Of a stretch of 64,000 nucleotides of DNA, positions 3,500-26,385 are shown piece by piece. This stretch comes from Frigoribacterium sp. JB110. GTDB taxonomy: Bacteria; Actinomycetota; Actinomycetes; Actinomycetales; Microbacteriaceae. A program made the translations under genes and the position numbers. Within the stretch, counting starts at the first letter, position 1; the number at the start of each line of letters is the position of its first letter. The notes beneath the pieces are model-generated. The model was not told where the DNA came from and searched no databases. It worked only from the letters and a program-made list of their open reading frames with translations. The DNA is taken from the NCBI RefSeq assembly GCF_900163665.1, contig NZ_FUIA01000011.1, positions 62,001 through 126,000 of the forward strand, given 5' to 3'.

Positions 3500-4972
3500 T
3501 CAGCCCACGTTAACGGCGACTGCCGGCCGCGCGTTCGGAATCAGGCGGAGTGCCACAACGGCCCCTGCGACCATCACGCCGGCGGCGATGAGCGTCGTCA
3601 CCTGCATCGAGTGCACGAAGGCTTCCCGTGCGGCATCGAGCGCAGCCCCTTCGCGCAGCTCGGCCGCGGCGCTCGCGAGCGAGTCCTGCGCGGCATCCGG
3701 AACGTCGGCCGGGAGCGCGAACCGGTACATCACGGTGAGCACGGAGCCCAGCACGGCGATGCCCATCGCCGTGCCCAGCTCGTACGCGGTCTCGGAGATC
3801 GACGAGGCCGCCCCCGACTTCTCCTGCGGCACTGACGAGACGACCGCGTCGACGCTGAGGGTCTCGGAGATGCCGATGCCGAGCCCGAGCGGCACCAGAG
3901 CGACGAGCAGCCATGACAGGTGCGTGCTGCCCTCCATGACCGCAACGGCCACCAAGCCGGCGGCTCCGAGCGCCAGGGCGAACGCGATCGCCCTGCCCCG
4001 ACCGAGACGAGCGACGAGGAAACCGACGCACGCGACGGCGAAGATCGACGCCACGGCGACGGGCAGCTGCGCCAGACCGGCGCTGAGCGGCTCCAGCCCT
4101 CGGGCGAGCTGCAGGTACTGCGAGAAGAAGAACAGCACACCGCTCATCGCGAAGACCGAGATGAAGTTCACGGCGACGGCACCGGAGAACGAGCCGTTGC
4201 GGAACAGGTCGACGTCGATCATCGGTGCGGCCGAGCGGCGCTGGCGCCGCACGAACAGGATGGACCCCGCCGCGGATGCGACGAGCGAGACGGCCAGTGC
4301 GACATCGACCGCGCCCGTGGTGAGGTGCTTGATCGCGTACACGAAGGGCACGATCGCCAGCATCGACCACGCGCTCGAGAGGAGATCGAGCCTGCCGGGG
4401 TGCGGGTTCTTCGACTCCGGCAGCACCCACGCGCCCAGGCCGACGATGACGAGCATCACCGGCACGTTGATCAGGAACACGCTCCCCCACCAGAAGTGCT
4501 CGAGCAGCGCGCCGCCGACGACGGGACCGAGTGCGATGCCGCTCGCGGCGGCCGCCGACCAGATCGCGATCGCGCGCGTGCGCTCGGCCGGATCGGTGAA
4601 GATGTTCCGGATGAGCGAGAGCGTCGACGGCATCAGCGTCGAGCCCGCCACCCCCAGCAGCACTCGCGCGACGATGAGCATCTCGGGGCTCGGCGCGAAC
4701 GCCGCCGCCACGGAGGCGATGCCGAACGCGGTGGCGCCGATCAGCAGCAGCCGCTTGCGCCCGACGCGATCGGCGATGTTGCCCATGGTGATCAGCAGGC
4801 CGGCGATCGCCAGCGAGTACACATCGCCGATCCACAGCACGGCAGTCGCGCTCGCGTCGAGATCTCTCGCGAGCGACGGCACGGCGAGGTGCAGCACCGT
4901 TGCGTCGATCGCGAGCAGCAGCACCGCCCCCGTGAGAACACCGAGGCTGAGGTAGCGCCGTGCGGATGTCAT
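3500..4972 (-). CDS. MFS drug efflux transporter, DHA2 (14-helix) family
   Basis: A 490-residue multidrug:H+ antiporter of the QacA/SmvA/LfrA-like group. It has about 14 hydrophobic segments, the motif LAVPSLARDLDASATAVLWIGDVYSL of the DHA2 family near residues 30-55 (shown here only in its LWIGDVYSL part), and the cytoplasmic loop GNIADRVGRKRLL (motif A). The start at 4972 is preferred over an in-frame GTG at about 5014 because GAGGAA lies three bases before it and the TetR operator would otherwise fall inside the gene. It is followed immediately by its TetR repressor. Substrate range cannot be told; cationic compounds are usual in this family. Confidence 0.88.
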   Translation of the reverse strand: MTSARRYLSLGVLTGAVLLLAIDATVLHLAVPSLARDLDASATAVLWIGDVYSLAIAGLLITMGNIADRVGRKRLLLIGATAFGIASVAAAFAPSPEMLIVARVLLGVAGSTLMPSTLSLIRNIFTDPAERTRAIAIWSAAAASGIALGPVVGGALLEHFWWGSVFLINVPVMLVIVGLGAWVLPESKNPHPGRLDLLSSAWSMLAIVPFVYAIKHLTTGAVDVALAVSLVASAAGSILFVRRQRRSAAPMIDVDLFRNGSFSGAVAVNFISVFAMSGVLFFFSQYLQLARGLEPLSAGLAQLPVAVASIFAVACVGFLVARLGRGRAIAFALALGAAGLVAVAVMEGSTHLSWLLVALVPLGLGIGISETLSVDAVVSSVPQEKSGAASSISETAYELGTAMGIAVLGSVLTVMYRFALPADVPDAAQDSLASAAAELREGAALDAAREAFVHSMQVTTLIAAGVMVAGAVVALRLIPNARPAVAVNVG

Positions 4973-21252: not shown

Positions 21253-21285
21253 GCGAACTCCAGAGAAAGGTGGGAGGTGATCGCA

Positions 21286-21366
21286 TCGGCCCAGGCGCGC
21301 GGCCGACTGCCGTCCAAGTCGCTCCCCGGTGGTGTCCCACCTCCGGCGCCAGTCGCGACGCCGCAA
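21286..21366 (-). ncRNA. ZTP (pfl) riboswitch upstream of glyA
   Basis: On the minus strand, 34-114 bases before the glyA ATG, I can read the conserved elements of the ZTP riboswitch in order: CGCGACTGGCG, then GGTGGGACACCACCGGGGAG (a hairpin GGTGG/CCACC followed by the conserved CGGGGAGC), a variable linker with a GC-rich stretch, and the 3' element GCGCCTGGGC. The class binds ZTP/ZMP and controls one-carbon and purine genes, glyA and folD among them, which matches the context. Boundaries are approximate. A pairing between the 3' part and the ribosome-site region (ACCTCCCACC) may be the expression platform. Confidence 0.88.
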
Positions 21367-21443: not shown

Positions 21444-22604
21444 ATGGGAATCGTGATCCACTCCGCACGTCTCGTCGGCCCCGGATGCCCCGATGCGGCA
21501 GAGACCGGATGGGTGCGGTTCGAGGGCCGCACGGTCGCGTCGTCCGGCACGGGTGCCCTGGTGCCGGAGGCGATCGCGCACGGAGACGAGGTGATCGACG
21601 CCTCGGCCATCGCCGCCGGCGCGACGCTGACGCCCGGTTTCATCGACATCCATTGCCACGGCGGCGGCGGACACGCCTTCGACGACGGCGGCGACGCGAT
21701 CCTGGCGGCCAGGGCGGCGCACCGTGCGCACGGCACGACACGCGCGCTGATCTCTCTTGTCACTGCCGACATCGCATCGCTCGCCCGCAGGGCCGCGACG
21801 GTCGCACAGCTCGCACGTTCGCACCCGGATGTGCTGGGCGCCCACCTCGAGGGCCCGTTCCTCGACCCCGGTCATCACGGCGCGCACGATCCGGCTCTGC
21901 TGCGCGCGCCTGAGCCTCGCGACGTCGACACGCTGCTCGAGGCGGGCGCGGGCACGGTGCGGCAGATCACGGTGGCCCCTGAGATCAGCGGCGGGCTCGA
22001 CGCGGTGGCGCGCATCGTCGCGGCCGGCGCCGCGGCGGCGATCGGCCACACCGATGCCGATGCCTCGACGACCCGCGAGGCGATCGACCGCGGCGCGACG
22101 ATCCTCACGCACGCGTTCAACGCCATGCCTGGTGTGCACCATCGACGCCCCGGCCCGCTGCCGGCAGCCGCCTCCGATGAGCGCGTGACCCTCGAGCTGA
22201 TCGCCGACGGTGTGCACGTCGAGCCGGATGTCATGCGCATGCTGTTCCTCGCCGCCCCCGGCCGGGTCGCGCTCGTGACCGACGCGATGGCGGCGACGGG
22301 CATGCCGGATGGGGCATATACGCTCGGCACGCTCGGCGTCGACGTCGCTCGCGGCGTCGCGCGCGTGCGCGAGACGGGCGCGATCGCCGGCTCGACCCTG
22401 ACACAGGACGAGGCGCTCCGCCGTGCCGTCGCGTTCGGCGCACCGCTGAACGAGGCCGTCGCCGCGCTCACCGCGGTCCCTGCACACGCGATCGGTCGCC
22501 CCGACCTCGGATCCCTCGCCCCGGGCTCCGCGGCCGACGCGGTCCTGCTCGACGGCGCGCTGCGCGTCAGCGCGGTCTGGTCATCCGGCGCCCGCGAGGT
22601 CTGA
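21444..22604 (+). CDS. nagA: N-acetylglucosamine-6-phosphate deacetylase
   Basis: A 386-residue amidohydrolase that removes acetate from GlcNAc-6-phosphate in amino-sugar and peptidoglycan recycling. The metal-binding motif is FIDIHCHGG with His70 and His72; other family blocks are HLEGPF, GHTDAD, TILTHAFNAM and ALVTDAM. The start at 21444 has no good ribosome site; the longer upstream frame runs through the glyA riboswitch and is not credible. No nagB or GlcNAc transporter lies beside it. A strong terminator follows. Confidence 0.92.
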   Translation: MGIVIHSARLVGPGCPDAAETGWVRFEGRTVASSGTGALVPEAIAHGDEVIDASAIAAGATLTPGFIDIHCHGGGGHAFDDGGDAILAARAAHRAHGTTRALISLVTADIASLARRAATVAQLARSHPDVLGAHLEGPFLDPGHHGAHDPALLRAPEPRDVDTLLEAGAGTVRQITVAPEISGGLDAVARIVAAGAAAAIGHTDADASTTREAIDRGATILTHAFNAMPGVHHRRPGPLPAAASDERVTLELIADGVHVEPDVMRMLFLAAPGRVALVTDAMAATGMPDGAYTLGTLGVDVARGVARVRETGAIAGSTLTQDEALRRAVAFGAPLNEAVAALTAVPAHAIGRPDLGSLAPGSAADAVLLDGALRVSAVWSSGAREV

Positions 22605-22626
22605 CGCGAGCCGAGCAGGGGCCGGC

Positions 22627-22655
22627 GGGCCCGAGTCCCCCGACTCGGGCCCCTT
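22627..22655 (+). terminator. Terminator after nagA
   Basis: An 11-bp perfect stem, GGGCCCGAGTC and GACTCGGGCCC, with a CCCC loop, followed by CTT, 23 bp after the nagA stop. Confidence 0.75.
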
Positions 22656-22936
22656 CCGGATTCGTGCACCCCGCCGGGGCGCGGAGCCCCTCCCCCGAGA
22701 CGCTCCGGCACATCCGGCGATCGGCGTTCGGCTCCTCGCGGAAACGCTGGGGACCCCTCCCCTCAGGACCCGAACGCACAACCCCTTCACACATGAGACG
22801 GCGACCGGGCCGATTCATCACGCGACTTCCGAGAAATTTCTTCCGACCAGTCGCACGCACCGCAGAACCCCGGACATCCCCGCAGAATCCGACGGTGAAC
22901 TGGCGCATTGCATAACAATCGACGCACAATAGGGGG
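22656..22936. other. Intergenic region before the ECF sigma gene
   Basis: About 280 bases with no credible gene; open frames here show no recognisable protein. The last 35 bases are AT-richer (TTGCAT at about 22905, CACAAT six bases before the sigma ATG) and probably hold the sigma gene promoter. Nothing else is recognised. Confidence 0.5.
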
Positions 22937-24796
22937 ATGCGTGCCCGCGAGACCGACGACAACGAGATGACGGCTGACGCCGATCTCGTGCTGCGTTCTC
23001 GCTCCGGCGACGCCGACGCGTTCGGTGAGCTGTGGCAGCGGCACTACCGCTCCGGCATCGTCGCCGCACGGAGCATCTCCCACGATCTCGACGCCGACGA
23101 CCTAGTGCAGGAGGCGTACGCGAAGGTCTTCCAGGCGATCAGGCGCGGGGGCGGCCCGACCGGTTCGTTCCGTGCCTACCTGTTCACCGCCATCCGGAAC
23201 ATCGCCTCGAGCTGGGGCAGGGCCAGCGCATCCGCCGCCGCCGGCGAGCTCGAAGACGTCGAAGATCCGGGCTCCAGCGAAGAGGCTGTCGACGCGGCGC
23301 TCGATCAGAGCCTCACGGTCACCGCGTTCCGTTCGCTGCCCAGCCGGTGGCAGGAGGTGCTCTGGTACACCGAAGTCGAGGGCATGAAGCCCGCAGAGGT
23401 TGCGCCGCTGCTCGGCGTGAAGCCGGGGGCGGTCTCCCAGCTCGCGCTCCGGGCGCGCGAAGGCCTGCGCGAATCCTGGATCCAGGCCCACATCGCGTCG
23501 GTTCCAGAAGACTCCGACTGCGCGTGGACGATCGAGCGCATCGGCGCGCACACCCGCGGCAATCTCGGCTCCCGCGACAGCGCCAAGGCCGATGCGCACA
23601 TCGCCTCGTGCCCGCGCTGCGCCATCGTCGCCTCTGAGGCACAGGATGTCGGCAGCCGGCTCGTCATGGTGCTGCTGCCGCTCGCGGTCGGCGTCGCCGG
23701 CGCCGGCGGCTACCTCGCGTCTCTGCAGCGCGGCGGCGAAGCGGTTGCGCTGATGGCGATGCCGCAGGGCGTCGTCGAGGGTGCGAGCGTGATCGCAGGT
23801 GAGAGCGTGGCTCCGGATCTCGTCGGTCACGGTGCGGCGCTCTTCGGCCACCTCGTCGAGCAGGGCGCTGCGCTCATCGGCGCGGTGGCGGCCGGCGCCG
23901 CCGGCCTTGCGGGAGCCGGCTCATCCGGCGCATCCGCCGGGTCGTCGTCCAGCGGCGGGCTGATGACGGTCGCCGGTGTGGCGACGGCGGGAATCGCCTC
24001 GCTCGCCATCGCGGGCGTCGTCGCCGCGGCAGCCGTTCTGCCTGGCTATCTGAGCCCTCCGACGGAAGGCACCCAGTCGGCGTTGCAGGAATCGACCTCG
24101 CCCACGGGCGCGGAGATCGAGCCGGACTCAGATCTCGCCGACGCGTCGGACGAGTCGGCGAGTTCGAAGACGCCGAAGCCCGCGCCGAAGAAGCCGAGCC
24201 CCACGCCGAAGGCGACGGAACCGCCCGCCGAACCGGCTCCGTCCCCGACACGGGATGACTCCCCCGAGGCGACGCCGAGCGGTGACGAGACGCCGACCCC
24301 TGAACCGACGACCGAGCCGACGCCGGAACCGCCGGGCGACGAGGACACCGGGAACGAGGACACCGGGAACGAAGACACCGGAAACGACGACACCGGCGGC
24401 GACGGTAACGACGACGAGGATCCGGGCAACGACGATGAGGTCGAGCTCTCCGAGGACGTGGACAGCAGCAACTGGATGGGCAACAGCCCCACTTTCAAGC
24501 TCGCCGCCACAGCGACGCCAGGTGAGAACGTGCATTTCGCCGTCGAGGACACGGACAACGATCCAATTGGCCTCGCACTGGACCTCGAGCCCAACATCCT
24601 GTGCGAGGTGTTCGCGGACACAAGCGTCGTCGAGGACGTTAAGATCGCCGATGACCAGGGAGTCGCCGTCGTCGAACTGGACAAGAAGTGCTGGATGTCG
24701 CCGGATGACTCTGTCACGATCATGCTCCAGGACGACCCTCAATCGGCCGTCGTCCTGAGCCTCAAGGACATCGTCCCCGGCATCCTCAGGGGCTGA
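22937..24796 (+). CDS. ECF sigma factor fused to zinc anti-sigma domain, membrane helices and an outer domain
   Basis: A 619-residue one-chain signalling protein. Residues about 20-95 are sigma region 2 (DLVQEAYAKVFQAI), about 125-180 region 4 (LPSRWQEVLWYTEVEGM, LLGVKPGAVSQLALRAREGL; in parts). A zinc anti-sigma motif His221-x3-Cys225-x2-Cys228 follows. Two to three membrane segments lie between about 237 and 370, then a Pro/Thr/Glu-rich linker of about 120 residues with four DTGNE-type repeats, and a C-terminal domain of about 110 residues with two cysteines, probably outside the cell. Actinobacterial ECF subgroups with such fused extensions are known. The start could also be the in-frame ATG at 22967. 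Release would need proteolysis or a conformational change. Confidence 0.85.
   Translation: MRARETDDNEMTADADLVLRSRSGDADAFGELWQRHYRSGIVAARSISHDLDADDLVQEAYAKVFQAIRRGGGPTGSFRAYLFTAIRNIASSWGRASASAAAGELEDVEDPGSSEEAVDAALDQSLTVTAFRSLPSRWQEVLWYTEVEGMKPAEVAPLLGVKPGAVSQLALRAREGLRESWIQAHIASVPEDSDCAWTIERIGAHTRGNLGSRDSAKADAHIASCPRCAIVASEAQDVGSRLVMVLLPLAVGVAGAGGYLASLQRGGEAVALMAMPQGVVEGASVIAGESVAPDLVGHGAALFGHLVEQGAALIGAVAAGAAGLAGAGSSGASAGSSSSGGLMTVAGVATAGIASLAIAGVVAAAAVLPGYLSPPTEGTQSALQESTSPTGAEIEPDSDLADASDESASSKTPKPAPKKPSPTPKATEPPAEPAPSPTRDDSPEATPSGDETPTPEPTTEPTPEPPGDEDTGNEDTGNEDTGNDDTGGDGNDDEDPGNDDEVELSEDVDSSNWMGNSPTFKLAATATPGENVHFAVEDTDNDPIGLALDLEPNILCEVFADTSVVEDVKIADDQGVAVVELDKKCWMSPDDSVTIMLQDDPQSAVVLSLKDIVPGILRG
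24344..24403 (+). repeat. 15-bp tandem repeat, four copies, inside the sigma gene linker
   Basis: Units of GACACCGGGAACGAG and variants encode DTGNE, DTGNE, DTGND and DTGGD. In-frame repeats of this kind can change copy number by slippage and so alter the length of the presumed extracellular linker. Confidence 0.85.
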
Positions 24797-24860
24797 GCAC
24801 CCACCCGCGAGATGCGCACCTTCACGACCTCCGGCTGTCGCTACCTGCGCGTCTCGGCGG

Positions 24861-24888
24861 CCTGGGGCCTGGGGCCTGGGGCCTGGGG
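24861..24888 (+). repeat. Tandem heptamer CCTGGGG, four copies
   Basis: Four perfect head-to-tail copies of CCTGGGG lie 45 bp upstream of the DUF3105 start, outside any gene. The position, just before the TAGACT box of that gene, would let copy-number change alter promoter spacing. Confidence 0.9.
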
Positions 24889-24933
24889 CAGGTTCCCAGC
24901 GCCCGCGCACATGCGCGCGCATAGACTCCTCTG

Positions 24934-25653
24934 GTGGCTTCGAAACGATCCGGCTCCAGCTCCAGCGCCCCTCGCGGACGCAGCGGCAACCCCGCCCGCG
25001 CAGCGGAGGCCGAGCGCCTCGCCAAGCAGCGGAAGTCTGAGACCGTCAGCGCGAAGGCCGAGTACGAGGAGAACGTGCGCAAGCGCCGCCGCGGGATCGC
25101 CGCGTGGTGGGCCGTCGGCTCCGTCGCCGCTGTGGCCGTCGCTGCGCTCATCGCCTGGTCGTTCATCACGACACCGTGGAACGAATACGACATCGCGTCG
25201 GTCGACCCGTCGTCGATCGAGGGCGTGGAGACCTTCGACAACGGCACCGACCACGTCACCGGAGAGGTCGACTACCCGCAGAACCCGCCGGCCGGCGGCC
25301 CGCACAACCAGGCGTGGCTGAACTGCGGCGTCTACACCGAGGTGCAGGAGGATGAGCACGCCGTGCACTCCCTGGAGCACGGCGCCGTCTGGATCACGTA
25401 TGACGCCGATTCCCTCACCGACGCGGAGGTCGAGCGCCTGCGCGAGTACGTGCCAGGCGGCTACGGCCTGATGTCGCCGTACGAGGGCATGGACACGCCC
25501 ATCGCCGTGAGCGCGTGGAACGCCCAGCTGAAGCTCGATTCCGTCGACGACAGCCGCATCGAAGAGTTCTTCCAGGCCTACTGGCGCAGCCCCGATGTGC
25601 CGGAGCCCGGCGCATCCTGCACCGGTGCGATCGACGGCCCTGGTCGCCTCTGA
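24934..25653 (+). CDS. DUF3105 membrane protein
   Basis: A 239-residue protein with a cytosolic basic, Ser/Ala-rich start, a coiled helix (about 20-50), one membrane segment (WWAVGSVAAVAVAALIAWSFI, about 57-77, quoted as 21 in two parts WWAVGSVAAV and AVAALIAWSFI) and an outer DUF3105 domain with the family blocks PPAGGPHNQAWLNCGVY and HSLEHGAVWITYD. The conserved His and Cys residues suggest a metal or redox role, not proven for the family. The GTG at 24934 lies six bases after TAGACT and lacks a ribosome site, so the mRNA may be leaderless. DUF3105 next to DUF305 is a common actinobacterial pair. Confidence 0.87.
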   Translation: MASKRSGSSSSAPRGRSGNPARAAEAERLAKQRKSETVSAKAEYEENVRKRRRGIAAWWAVGSVAAVAVAALIAWSFITTPWNEYDIASVDPSSIEGVETFDNGTDHVTGEVDYPQNPPAGGPHNQAWLNCGVYTEVQEDEHAVHSLEHGAVWITYDADSLTDAEVERLREYVPGGYGLMSPYEGMDTPIAVSAWNAQLKLDSVDDSRIEEFFQAYWRSPDVPEPGASCTGAIDGPGRL

Positions 25654-25668
25654 CGCTCCCGGATCACC

Positions 25669-26385
25669 ATGCCAGACGCCCAGCGCATCGAACCGGATGA
25701 CCCGGAGGCCGACGCATCATCGGAGCGTGCGGCCGGATCATCCGGATCTGCGCGCCGTCGCCGGTGGCCGCTGATCGCGTTGGCGATCGTGCTCGTCGCA
25801 GGAGCCGCGTTCGCGATCGGCCGCTTCACCACCTTCGGCGCGGTGACCGGCCCGAATGACGCCGACGTCGGATTCGCACGCGACATGCAGGTGCACCATT
25901 CCCAGGCCGTCGAGATGGCCCTGATCGAGTATGCGGCGACGACCGACGAGGAGCTGCGCTTCACCGCGTACGACATCGCGACCGGTCAGGCGGCGCAGGG
26001 CGGCGAGATGTACGGGTGGCTCGTCGAATGGGGTGCGCCGCAGTACGGCACCGACCCGCTGATGGCGTGGATGCAGGGCACCGAGCACGATCACGGCGGC
26101 GCCGTCACGCCGACCGCCACCGATGCCGAACTGCGCGACGCGATGGGTATGGCGACCGACGACCAGCTCGCCGAGCTGCGGGCGAAGGCCGGCACCATGG
26201 CAGGCGACTGCCTCTTCGTCGACCTCATGGTGACCCACCACACGGGAGCCCTGGAGATGGTCGAGGCCGTGCGCGAACTCGGCGCCGATCCGCGCGTGCA
26301 CCAGGTCGCCGGCGCCATGGGAGAGACCCAGCAGCGCGAGATCGACGCGATGAACGCCATCGCGGATCGGATCGGCTGCGAGTAG
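25669..26385 (+). CDS. DUF305 membrane-anchored protein
   Basis: A 238-residue protein with an N-terminal membrane anchor (RRRWPLIALAIVLVAGAAFA, about 32-51) and an outer helical DUF305 domain, a ferritin-like four-helix fold. It has the repeated family motifs MQVHHSQAVEMALIEY and MVTHHTGALEMVEAV, whose His/Met residues suggest metal (often copper) binding. The start is 15 bp after the DUF3105 stop, so the two form an operon. DUF305 proteins often occur with copper-handling genes, but none is visible here, so the metal is uncertain. Confidence 0.87.
   Translation: MPDAQRIEPDDPEADASSERAAGSSGSARRRRWPLIALAIVLVAGAAFAIGRFTTFGAVTGPNDADVGFARDMQVHHSQAVEMALIEYAATTDEELRFTAYDIATGQAAQGGEMYGWLVEWGAPQYGTDPLMAWMQGTEHDHGGAVTPTATDAELRDAMGMATDDQLAELRAKAGTMAGDCLFVDLMVTHHTGALEMVEAVRELGADPRVHQVAGAMGETQQREIDAMNAIADRIGCE

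Follow-up and report, generated by a model that had tools for sequence, protein, structure and literature searches.

What does a sigma factor switch on when it is joined, in a single membrane-spanning chain, to its own anti-sigma domain? The question is raised by a gene of Frigoribacterium sp. JB110, for which an earlier note had proposed an extracytoplasmic function (ECF) sigma factor with a zinc anti-sigma domain, membrane helices and an outer sensor domain in one polypeptide. We analysed the 64-kb stretch of contig NZ_FUIA01000011.1 that carries this gene (the window; all coordinates are window positions and minus-strand features are marked as such). Next to the sigma gene we found a sharply defined ECF-type promoter that points away from it and leads into a predicted structured RNA (Table 1). 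We consider it likely that the protein is a membrane-released sigma factor that switches on this small RNA and, in relatives, surface proteins.

The mechanism that we propose is the following. The sigma factor would be tethered to the membrane through parts of its own chain, the C-terminal zinc anti-sigma domain and the membrane segments, and an Ig-like domain on a Pro/Thr/acidic stalk would be the probable sensor. A signal at the surface or envelope would lead to cleavage, presumably by regulated intramembrane proteolysis (RIP) or a process of that type, and the freed sigma domain would then recognise GCGTVAT-N17-GTCTCW. In the genome under study the sole convincing site would drive a divergent RNA with G-rich apical loops, running from 22787 to about 22623 on the minus strand; in relatives the same type of promoter would also serve the sigma gene itself and, in some, surface proteins. 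Like GsrN of Caulobacter, the RNA would most likely act post-transcriptionally, with the exposed loops as its active parts. Four elements of this picture come directly from the computation: the architecture of the protein, the promoter motif, the structure of the RNA and its linkage to the sigma gene.

Several collections of related sequences were used. The wider relatives are 75 loci (L-numbers) from a scan that took one genome per species, nearly all of them Micrococcales by title; the nearest is L001, from Microbacterium halotolerans, with 72% identity to the window protein. The same-genus set consists of 32 loci, the window's own included, with 26 complete proteins among them. The same-genus genome set holds 79 genomes (G-numbers), 46 with the sigma gene (E at most 1e-70) and 33 without it, and for this set the adjacency of sites to the gene was judged by comparing their positions with the sigma-gene matches by eye. 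A separate set of 16 further genomes was searched with GCGTCAT-N17-GTCTCT.

An ECF-type promoter that accompanies the sigma gene

The search for a matching promoter motif that the earlier note had suggested was carried out and yielded our main result, the motif GCGTVAT-N17-GTCTCW. Upstream of the sigma gene of many relatives two blocks, GCGTCAT and GTCTCT, lie exactly 17 bp apart: allowing at most one mismatch, the pair was found within 300 bp upstream in 37 of the 70 usable wider loci at spacer 17, and in 0-6 loci at each of the other spacers from 10 to 25. A degenerate pattern, GCGTSAY-N17-GTSTNW, which was designed after the loci had been viewed and with the window's site included, gave 62 matches in the 75 wider loci (58 fall no further than 330 bp from the sigma-gene ends) and exactly one match in the whole window, on the minus strand at 22823-22794. 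Within the same-genus loci this type of promoter precedes the sigma gene in 18/32 and occurs divergently in 26/32; the other spacers from 12 to 22 combined gave one match in these 32 loci, and in L085 the spacer of the gene's own promoter is 18 by count.

A strict pattern (GCGTVATNA-N15-GTCTCW) was compared with its reversed form as a control, and gave 62 matches in the 79 same-genus genomes versus 0 for the reversed pattern. The sigma gene is the neighbour of 46 of these 62 sites, and the pattern occurs in 34 of the 46 genomes with the gene (beside it in 29) versus 2 of the 33 without. The 16 further genomes contained 35 matches to GCGTCAT-N17-GTCTCT, of which 17 adjoin the sigma gene and 18 do not, and none to its reversed form. 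In the genome from which the window derives, the window's site is the only match to the strict pattern.

The region before the window's own sigma gene gave no site in a sigma-70 consensus scan; the two short blocks directly before its ATG (Table 1) may form a promoter of the leaderless type that belongs to the window's lineage. Elsewhere, the Salinibacterium-type group (L003-L009, L011-L015 and others) has a strongly conserved leader ending in GGATCAGGGGGATG before the sigma ATG, from which the window differs. A candidate promoter in the leader of the marine group (GGGACA ... GGATC before the ATG) was dropped, its spacing being variable by eye.

A predicted structured RNA behind the divergent promoter

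The divergent site points towards the 3' end of nagA, and no convincing gene separates the two. When the start of the RNA is placed 7 nt after the -10 block and its end at the hairpin before the nagA stop, the predicted transcript folds as several hairpins, many of which are G-rich at their tips. The exact 11-nt tip CUCGGGGGAGG is present on the core hairpin in 22 of 27 divergent sequences. Alignments A3-A5 were made from these 22, selected for the exact tip, the invariance of which therefore reflects the selection; L102, in which the stem is offset, is absent from A4 and A5. Two sets aligned in register were analysed for covariation. In the first, of 11 sequences, changes on both sides were found in 9 of 18 pairs, with 86.9% of the cells paired and a covariation score of 0.323 (shuffled mean 0.186). 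In the second, of 10 sequences with the window's included, 11 of 19 pairs had changed on both sides, 87.4% of the cells were paired and the score was 0.389 (shuffled 0.142). In neither set did any of 500 shuffles reach the score, and sliding of the pairing partner yielded at most 0.183 and 0.143, respectively; in the second set no shuffle reached the pair-type or changed-pair counts either.

Two covariance models, R1 from 11 training sequences and R2 from 10 (9 of which lie within the 79 genomes), were searched against the same-genus genomes; their E-values are rough. At E at most 0.001 R1 gave 27 matches, with two copies in four genomes, and 24 of the 27 are by eye no more than about 700 bp away from the sigma gene; the three away from the gene are the weakest (3e-5, 6e-4 and 8e-4), and of those outside the training set 13/16 are beside it. 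For R2 the numbers are 11 beside the gene out of 12 matches, and 2/3 outside training; the single R2 match in the window's own genome is the core hairpin of the window, at 22667-22724, which is itself part of the training set. Taken together, an R1 or R2 RNA is found beside the gene in 31 of the 46 genomes with a sigma gene, while the 33 genomes without it contain no R1 match and one weak R2 match (G074, 3.3e-4). Synteny by itself could also hold the two together; that the RNA is nearly absent from genomes that lack the sigma gene favours a functional link.

Various observations weigh against the promoter, the RNA or their link. On the side of the promoter, 16 of the 62 strict matches are away from the sigma gene, and in the window's own genome the degenerate pattern gave 6 matches versus 4 for the reversed control, so that no wider regulon is shown; the matches other than the window site are no better than this control and were discarded. 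In the window and in L001 the sigma gene is not itself preceded by an ECF-type promoter, so that autoregulation is not seen here. With respect to the RNA, the further pair types of the first covariation set fall within the shuffles (172/500 reach them) and its changed-pair count is reached by 2/500, and five loci (L083, L085, L103, L108 and L122) have the divergent promoter without the exact tip. A CUCGGGGGAG loop is complementary to the sigma coding sequence at 24259 in the window, but this complementarity occurs in only 1 of 32 loci, for which reason the pairing was rejected; no conserved target was found. With respect to the link, 15 of the 46 genomes with the gene have no adjacent R1 or R2 match (the strict filters lose weak matches), G021 has a sigma gene and yet its sole R1 match lies elsewhere, and nagA is the neighbour in 28 of the 32 same-genus loci, which makes part of the linkage plain synteny.

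Other identities for the transcribed region were considered. In the sources searched, no Rfam 15 family matches the RNA at gathering score; relaxing the threshold to E 10 adds a single match at chance level. The 6C RNA is an actinobacterial RNA of two hairpins with single-base runs; in the window RNA the runs are of G on the promoter-driven strand. The 6C covariance model (RF01066) found nothing in the window region or in the window's own genome, in a test of low sensitivity (of 14 control genomes only C. glutamicum gave a match, and that one below the cut-off), and a 6C RNA or 6C sponge was rejected on this basis. A small protein was rejected as well: minus-strand frames exist, and none of the three, when counted from the -10 block, is free of stops in all 27 sequences, which is a weak test, and the distances from tip to promoter are not in one frame across the divergent sequences, which also counts against it.

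Tandem copies of the RNA occur in G002, G030, G035 and G066 (e.g. L087 and L114), and in L087 each copy is under its own ECF-type promoter. In two genomes a similar promoter site that is unlinked to the sigma gene (L181, 1565; L182, 1482) stands before a conserved stretch rich in hairpins, which may be a further RNA.

The sigma protein and competing explanations

The frame of the sigma gene is open for 619 codons, with no break between the sigma and the membrane parts, and the single polypeptide of the earlier note, with sigma regions 2 and 4, zinc domain and membrane segments, is confirmed by this open frame, by Pfam and by hydropathy. The ATG at 22937 was taken as start because the next in-frame ATG is altered in L001. 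As in ECF sigma factors, only regions 2 and 4 are present and both are recognisable (PF04542, PF08281); TIGR02937, the NCBIfam model for the sigma70-ECF superfamily, matches at 76.2 bits, and no NCBIfam equivalog reached its cut-off among the 25 listed of 64 families. The zinc domain has the upstream Cys/His and the HxxxCxxC of class I zinc anti-sigma domains. The motif, H221-IAS-C225-PR-C228 with C195 as the likely fourth ligand, is conserved among the orthologues: of the 75 wider relatives only L075, a short frame, lacks C195, C225 and C228 (74 of 75 for each), H221 is found in 73 (missing in L075 and in the frameshifted L069), and all 32 same-genus loci have HxxxCxxC, with Cys as the fourth ligand in 29 of them and His in 3. 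Frameshifts were observed in two sigma genes, in L042 at the first membrane segment and in L069 in the zinc domain.

Two further proposals of the earlier note, an outer two-cysteine sensor domain and tuning of the linker length by 15-bp repeats, found no support as conserved features. The end domain of the window protein has two cysteines, C556 and C585; after residue 380 no cysteine is found in 20 of the 26 complete same-genus proteins (the other six have two), nor in 55 of the 60 wider relatives that exceed 450 aa (contig ends truncate two of these 60), and the end domain of L001 is free of cysteine. A conserved redox role of the outer cysteines was thus rejected. The linker that follows the membrane segments is rich in Pro, Thr and acidic residues and does contain the 15-bp repeat (Table 1), but this repeat (DTGN) was found in no other protein examined, be it same-genus or wider relative, and a role as a conserved device for linker tuning was therefore rejected.

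The outer domain, which the earlier note had left unrecognised, indeed has no significant Pfam match and no match to a Big profile in the window protein; in some relatives it scores as a bacterial Ig domain. When ten end domains were scanned, the bacterial Ig profile Big_6 was found above cut-off in L019 and L049 and below it in L052, L059 and L062. The window domain can be aligned with the same-genus end domains, and its AlphaFold model consists of beta strands in a beta sandwich at a mean pLDDT of 75.6 (moderate confidence). In a structure search with this model the best PDB match had E 0.019, with none at 0.001, and Ig and beta-sandwich proteins were among the top rows. Judged from model and alignment the window end domain looks Ig-like. 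Two Streptomyces relatives that were read have, by eye, a ricin-type lectin-like domain at the C-terminus, and the end domain appears to have been exchanged during evolution.

The end domain probably lies outside the cell, which would require an odd number of membrane passes. That there are two passes, with the Ig-like domain inside the cell and a sensor other than an outer domain, is unlikely, even though in the window only two segments exceed the hydropathy threshold and one to two helices are described for such proteins (PMC8999054). A third segment (about residues 268-289) exceeds the threshold in L111, L113 and L121, no more than one Lys or Arg (0-1) was counted between the first and the last segment in any of 15 scanned proteins, a stalk with an Ig-like domain is typical of the cell surface, and the lectin-like domain of the two Streptomyces relatives argues in the same direction.

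It is improbable that the protein is a plain one-chain receptor sigma factor, ECF52/53-like, and that the adjacent hairpins are terminators or GC-rich noise. Such an architecture is published, hairpins are cheap at the 72% GC of positions 22001-24000, and the RNA sits just past the end of nagA; against this stand the changes on both sides of the stem around a common 11-nt tip, the clustering beside the sigma gene of model matches, untrained ones included, and the ECF-type promoter that faces the RNA. We give as little credit to a real RNA that is read from the plus strand, as a nagA 3' element or a 6C-like C-rich leader, next to a promoter that points the other way by coincidence. The loops would be C-rich on the plus strand, C-rich loops are a usual kind in Gram-positive small RNAs, the marine-type RNA described below has C-rich tips on its promoter-driven strand, and the nagA synteny would suit a 3' element. 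The strand signal is opposite: 27 G-U versus 7 A-C cells favour the promoter-driven minus strand, which also gives the more stable fold for 26 of 27 sequences (the G-rich strand being favoured by G-U pairs in any case), and the direction of the promoter, the missing 6C match and the near-absence of the RNA from the genomes without a sigma gene point the same way.

Similarly doubtful is the idea that a different ECF sigma factor reads the promoter and that the sigma gene is merely one of its targets. Positive autoregulation is described as common for ECF sigma factors (PMC5826349), which speaks for the gene's own product, as do the 46 of 62 strict sites that lie beside the sigma gene and the presence of the motif in 34/46 genomes with the gene versus 2/33 without. 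Another sigma factor would agree with the paralogues found in relatives, with the strict sites away from the gene, and with two unlinked sites (L209 and L210) that by eye precede a SigK-like gene. A redox switch at the zinc site or in the outer pair of cysteines, a reading that goes back to the zinc/redox change of the earlier note, is very improbable: the zinc ligands are conserved and the end-domain cysteines, where present in complete same-genus proteins, come as two, but most of these proteins have none, and in membrane systems a zinc anti-sigma domain often does not serve as a redox switch. Of the routes of release that had been suggested, proteolysis is the one proposed in the literature for proteins of this kind (PMC8999054, PMC5826349).

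Candidate outputs in other branches, related systems and features of the window

The sigma factor and promoter that we consider linked have other companions elsewhere. The Salinibacterium-type loci L005 and L028 have, by eye, a PtsI-like gene and a convergent sdhB-like gene as neighbours. In this marine-type branch a second copy of the promoter follows the sigma stop in the same direction and leads into a different predicted RNA with C-rich CCCAG tips on the promoter-driven strand; of the 71 loci examined, some of them incomplete, 28 have such a copy within 700 bp. From the 14 CCCAG-tip sequences taken for alignment, set A9 retains the 9 that pair in register, a choice that raises the pairing percentage; here 11 of 12 pairs had changed on both sides (score 0.940 versus 0.273 shuffled). 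In set A6, with 13 sequences that are partly out of register, 12 of 14 pairs had done so (0.377 versus 0.178). In Leucobacter (L068, L070, L071 and L073) a divergent variant, GCGTCAC-N17-GTGTWA, leads directly into a long 5' hairpin, the loop of which is C-rich, and a coding-like ATG comes after it.

In some relatives, promoter sites that are unlinked to the sigma gene precede genes for surface proteins. Of the 18 such loci read in the 16 further genomes, eight precede a secreted protein with a common FLSG motif after the signal peptide (by eye), and the three of this type that were tested by profile are all choice-of-anchor G proteins. Among the same-genus unlinked sites (8 of 16 read), that of G040 precedes an SdrD/SpaA-type protein with a sortase signal and that of G047, by eye, a secreted protein; the remaining ones precede membrane proteins or are unclear. 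In addition, the sigma gene adjoins a SpaA-type pilin gene on an Arthrobacter plasmid and a gene for a SpaA/VWA surface protein in L017. Homology between the sigma end domain and four of the putatively controlled surface proteins was rejected, as BLAST gave no match better than E 0.02. The collected outputs suggest that the promoter serves cell-surface remodelling in the relatives. A broader and more tentative interpretation is that of a one-protein transmembrane receptor with a non-coding RNA as its main, and here perhaps only, direct output: the sigma factor and a family of multi-hairpin RNAs could have been inherited as one module across the Micrococcales while the RNA was swapped for seemingly unrelated hairpins (CUCGGGGGAGG in Microbacterium, CCCAG in the marine branch) under the same promoter logic, and could couple surface sensing to post-transcriptional control of surface-protein mRNAs.

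The earlier note had regarded the fused chain as an unusual design, but ECF48, ECF52 and ECF53 of the Actinobacteria have already been described with a C-terminal zinc finger, membrane parts and expected proteolytic activation (PMC8999054), and the window protein is, by its sequence, a further member of a described architecture. SCO4117 (ECF52) of Streptomyces coelicolor, according to a review the best understood fused membrane sigma factor (PMC8999054), combines a zinc finger and a membrane region with a Pro-rich stretch and a carbohydrate-binding domain; a strain that retains only the sigma domain is less severely affected than one with the full deletion (PMC5826349). The window protein resembles ECF52, a group confined to Actinobacteria (PMC5826349), in that one chain has sigma, zinc finger, membrane and Pro-rich parts; it has no Pfam match to a carbohydrate-binding C-terminal domain, with the Ig-like domain instead. 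The promoter motif given for SCO4117, CSGYN-17-SRHA, is putative and "theoretical" according to its authors, and shares only its spacing with GCGTVAT-N17-GTCTCW (PMC5826349). The 12 Streptomyces plasmid records listed (H5-H16) match 88-99% of a 252-residue query at 34-36% identity, and the two Streptomyces relatives with the lectin-like domain are among them. ECF48 and ECF53, compared by description, share the C-terminal fusion with a zinc finger, one to two membrane helices and the expected proteolysis (PMC8999054). IutY of Pseudomonas putida (ECF243) is likewise a sigma factor fused to a membrane anti-sigma factor under regulated proteolysis, but it belongs to iron-starvation cell-surface signalling in a Gram-negative bacterium, and a zinc domain goes unmentioned in the source passage (PMC8999054).

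On the side of the RNA the nearest parallel is GsrN of Caulobacter, an ECF-controlled small RNA that base-pairs with the katG leader and is typically encoded near the sigma locus (PMC5869019). The window RNA is like it, as judged from sequence alone, in its ECF-type promoter, its position near the sigma gene and its structure, and both have a conserved exposed loop, which in GsrN is C-rich and in Rhizobiaceae is described also as G-rich (PMC5869019). The differences are that the sigma factor is there under NepR and PhyR (PMC5869019), that no sequence relation is shown, and that the window-type RNA has several hairpins and has so far been found only in Micrococcales. A literature search, which reached few subscription journals, found no report of the promoter or the RNA. 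What appears new is the sharp promoter with its linked RNA that has no Rfam match, and the membrane-tethered sigma factor as an element in the coupling of ECF factors to small RNAs. For the fused membrane sigma factors comparative genomics provides here a sharp promoter, a linked structured RNA and candidate surface-protein targets; if our interpretation is correct, the coupling known from Caulobacter would extend to membrane-tethered sigma factors of Actinobacteria, and the membrane-tethered switch would gain a testable output in the adjacent RNA.

Table 1. Features of the sigma gene and the predicted divergent RNA in the window
Feature	Coordinates	Strand	Basis
Predicted structured non-coding RNA	22623..22787	-	Folding, covariation, covariance models
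GC-rich inverted repeat after nagA; possibly a terminator shared by nagA and the RNA	22627..22653		Read from sequence and fold
RNA core hairpin, apical CUCGGGGGAGG	22667..22724	-	Model R2, 55.5 bits; sequence in R2 training set
Divergent ECF-type promoter, -35 GCGTGAT (22823-22817), 17-bp spacer, -10 GTCTCA (22799-22794)	22794..22823	-	Pattern match
CACAAT + AGGGGG directly before the ATG; putative leaderless-type promoter of the sigma gene	22925..22936	+
Transmembrane ECF sigma factor gene	22937..24796	+	Open frame, 619 aa; Pfam
Sigma region 2 (residues 42-91)	23060..23209	+	PF04542 Sigma70_r2, E 2.1e-8, above cut-off
Sigma region 4 (residues 129-175)	23321..23461	+	PF08281 Sigma70_r4_2, E 2.3e-6, above cut-off
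Zinc anti-sigma domain, C195...H221xxxC225xxC228 (residues 195-229)	23519..23623	+	PF13490 zf-HC2, above curated cut-off
First hydrophobic (membrane) segment (residues 238-263)	23648..23725	+	Kyte-Doolittle scan
Last hydrophobic (membrane) segment (residues 340-374)	23954..24058	+	Kyte-Doolittle scan
15-bp tandem repeat in acidic linker, 3.9 copies, 93% match	24339..24396	+	Repeat scan
C-terminal Ig-like domain (probable; residues 499-619), C556 + C585	24431..24793	+	Relatives' alignment; AlphaFold; Big_6 in some relatives

Downstream of the sigma gene, genes for a DUF3105 and a DUF305 protein lie in tandem at 24934-26385 and are by eye kept in L001; no DUF3105 gene was seen in the remaining 31 same-genus loci, the flanks of which are short. 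Between the sigma and DUF3105 genes lies a perfect 7-bp tandem repeat, GGCCTGG, in 4.4 copies (24859-24889). On the other side of the locus a ZMP/ZTP riboswitch (RF01750, 57 bits) lies next to a glyA-like gene, at 21282-21366 on the minus strand, and it is also present in L001 at 4255-4339.

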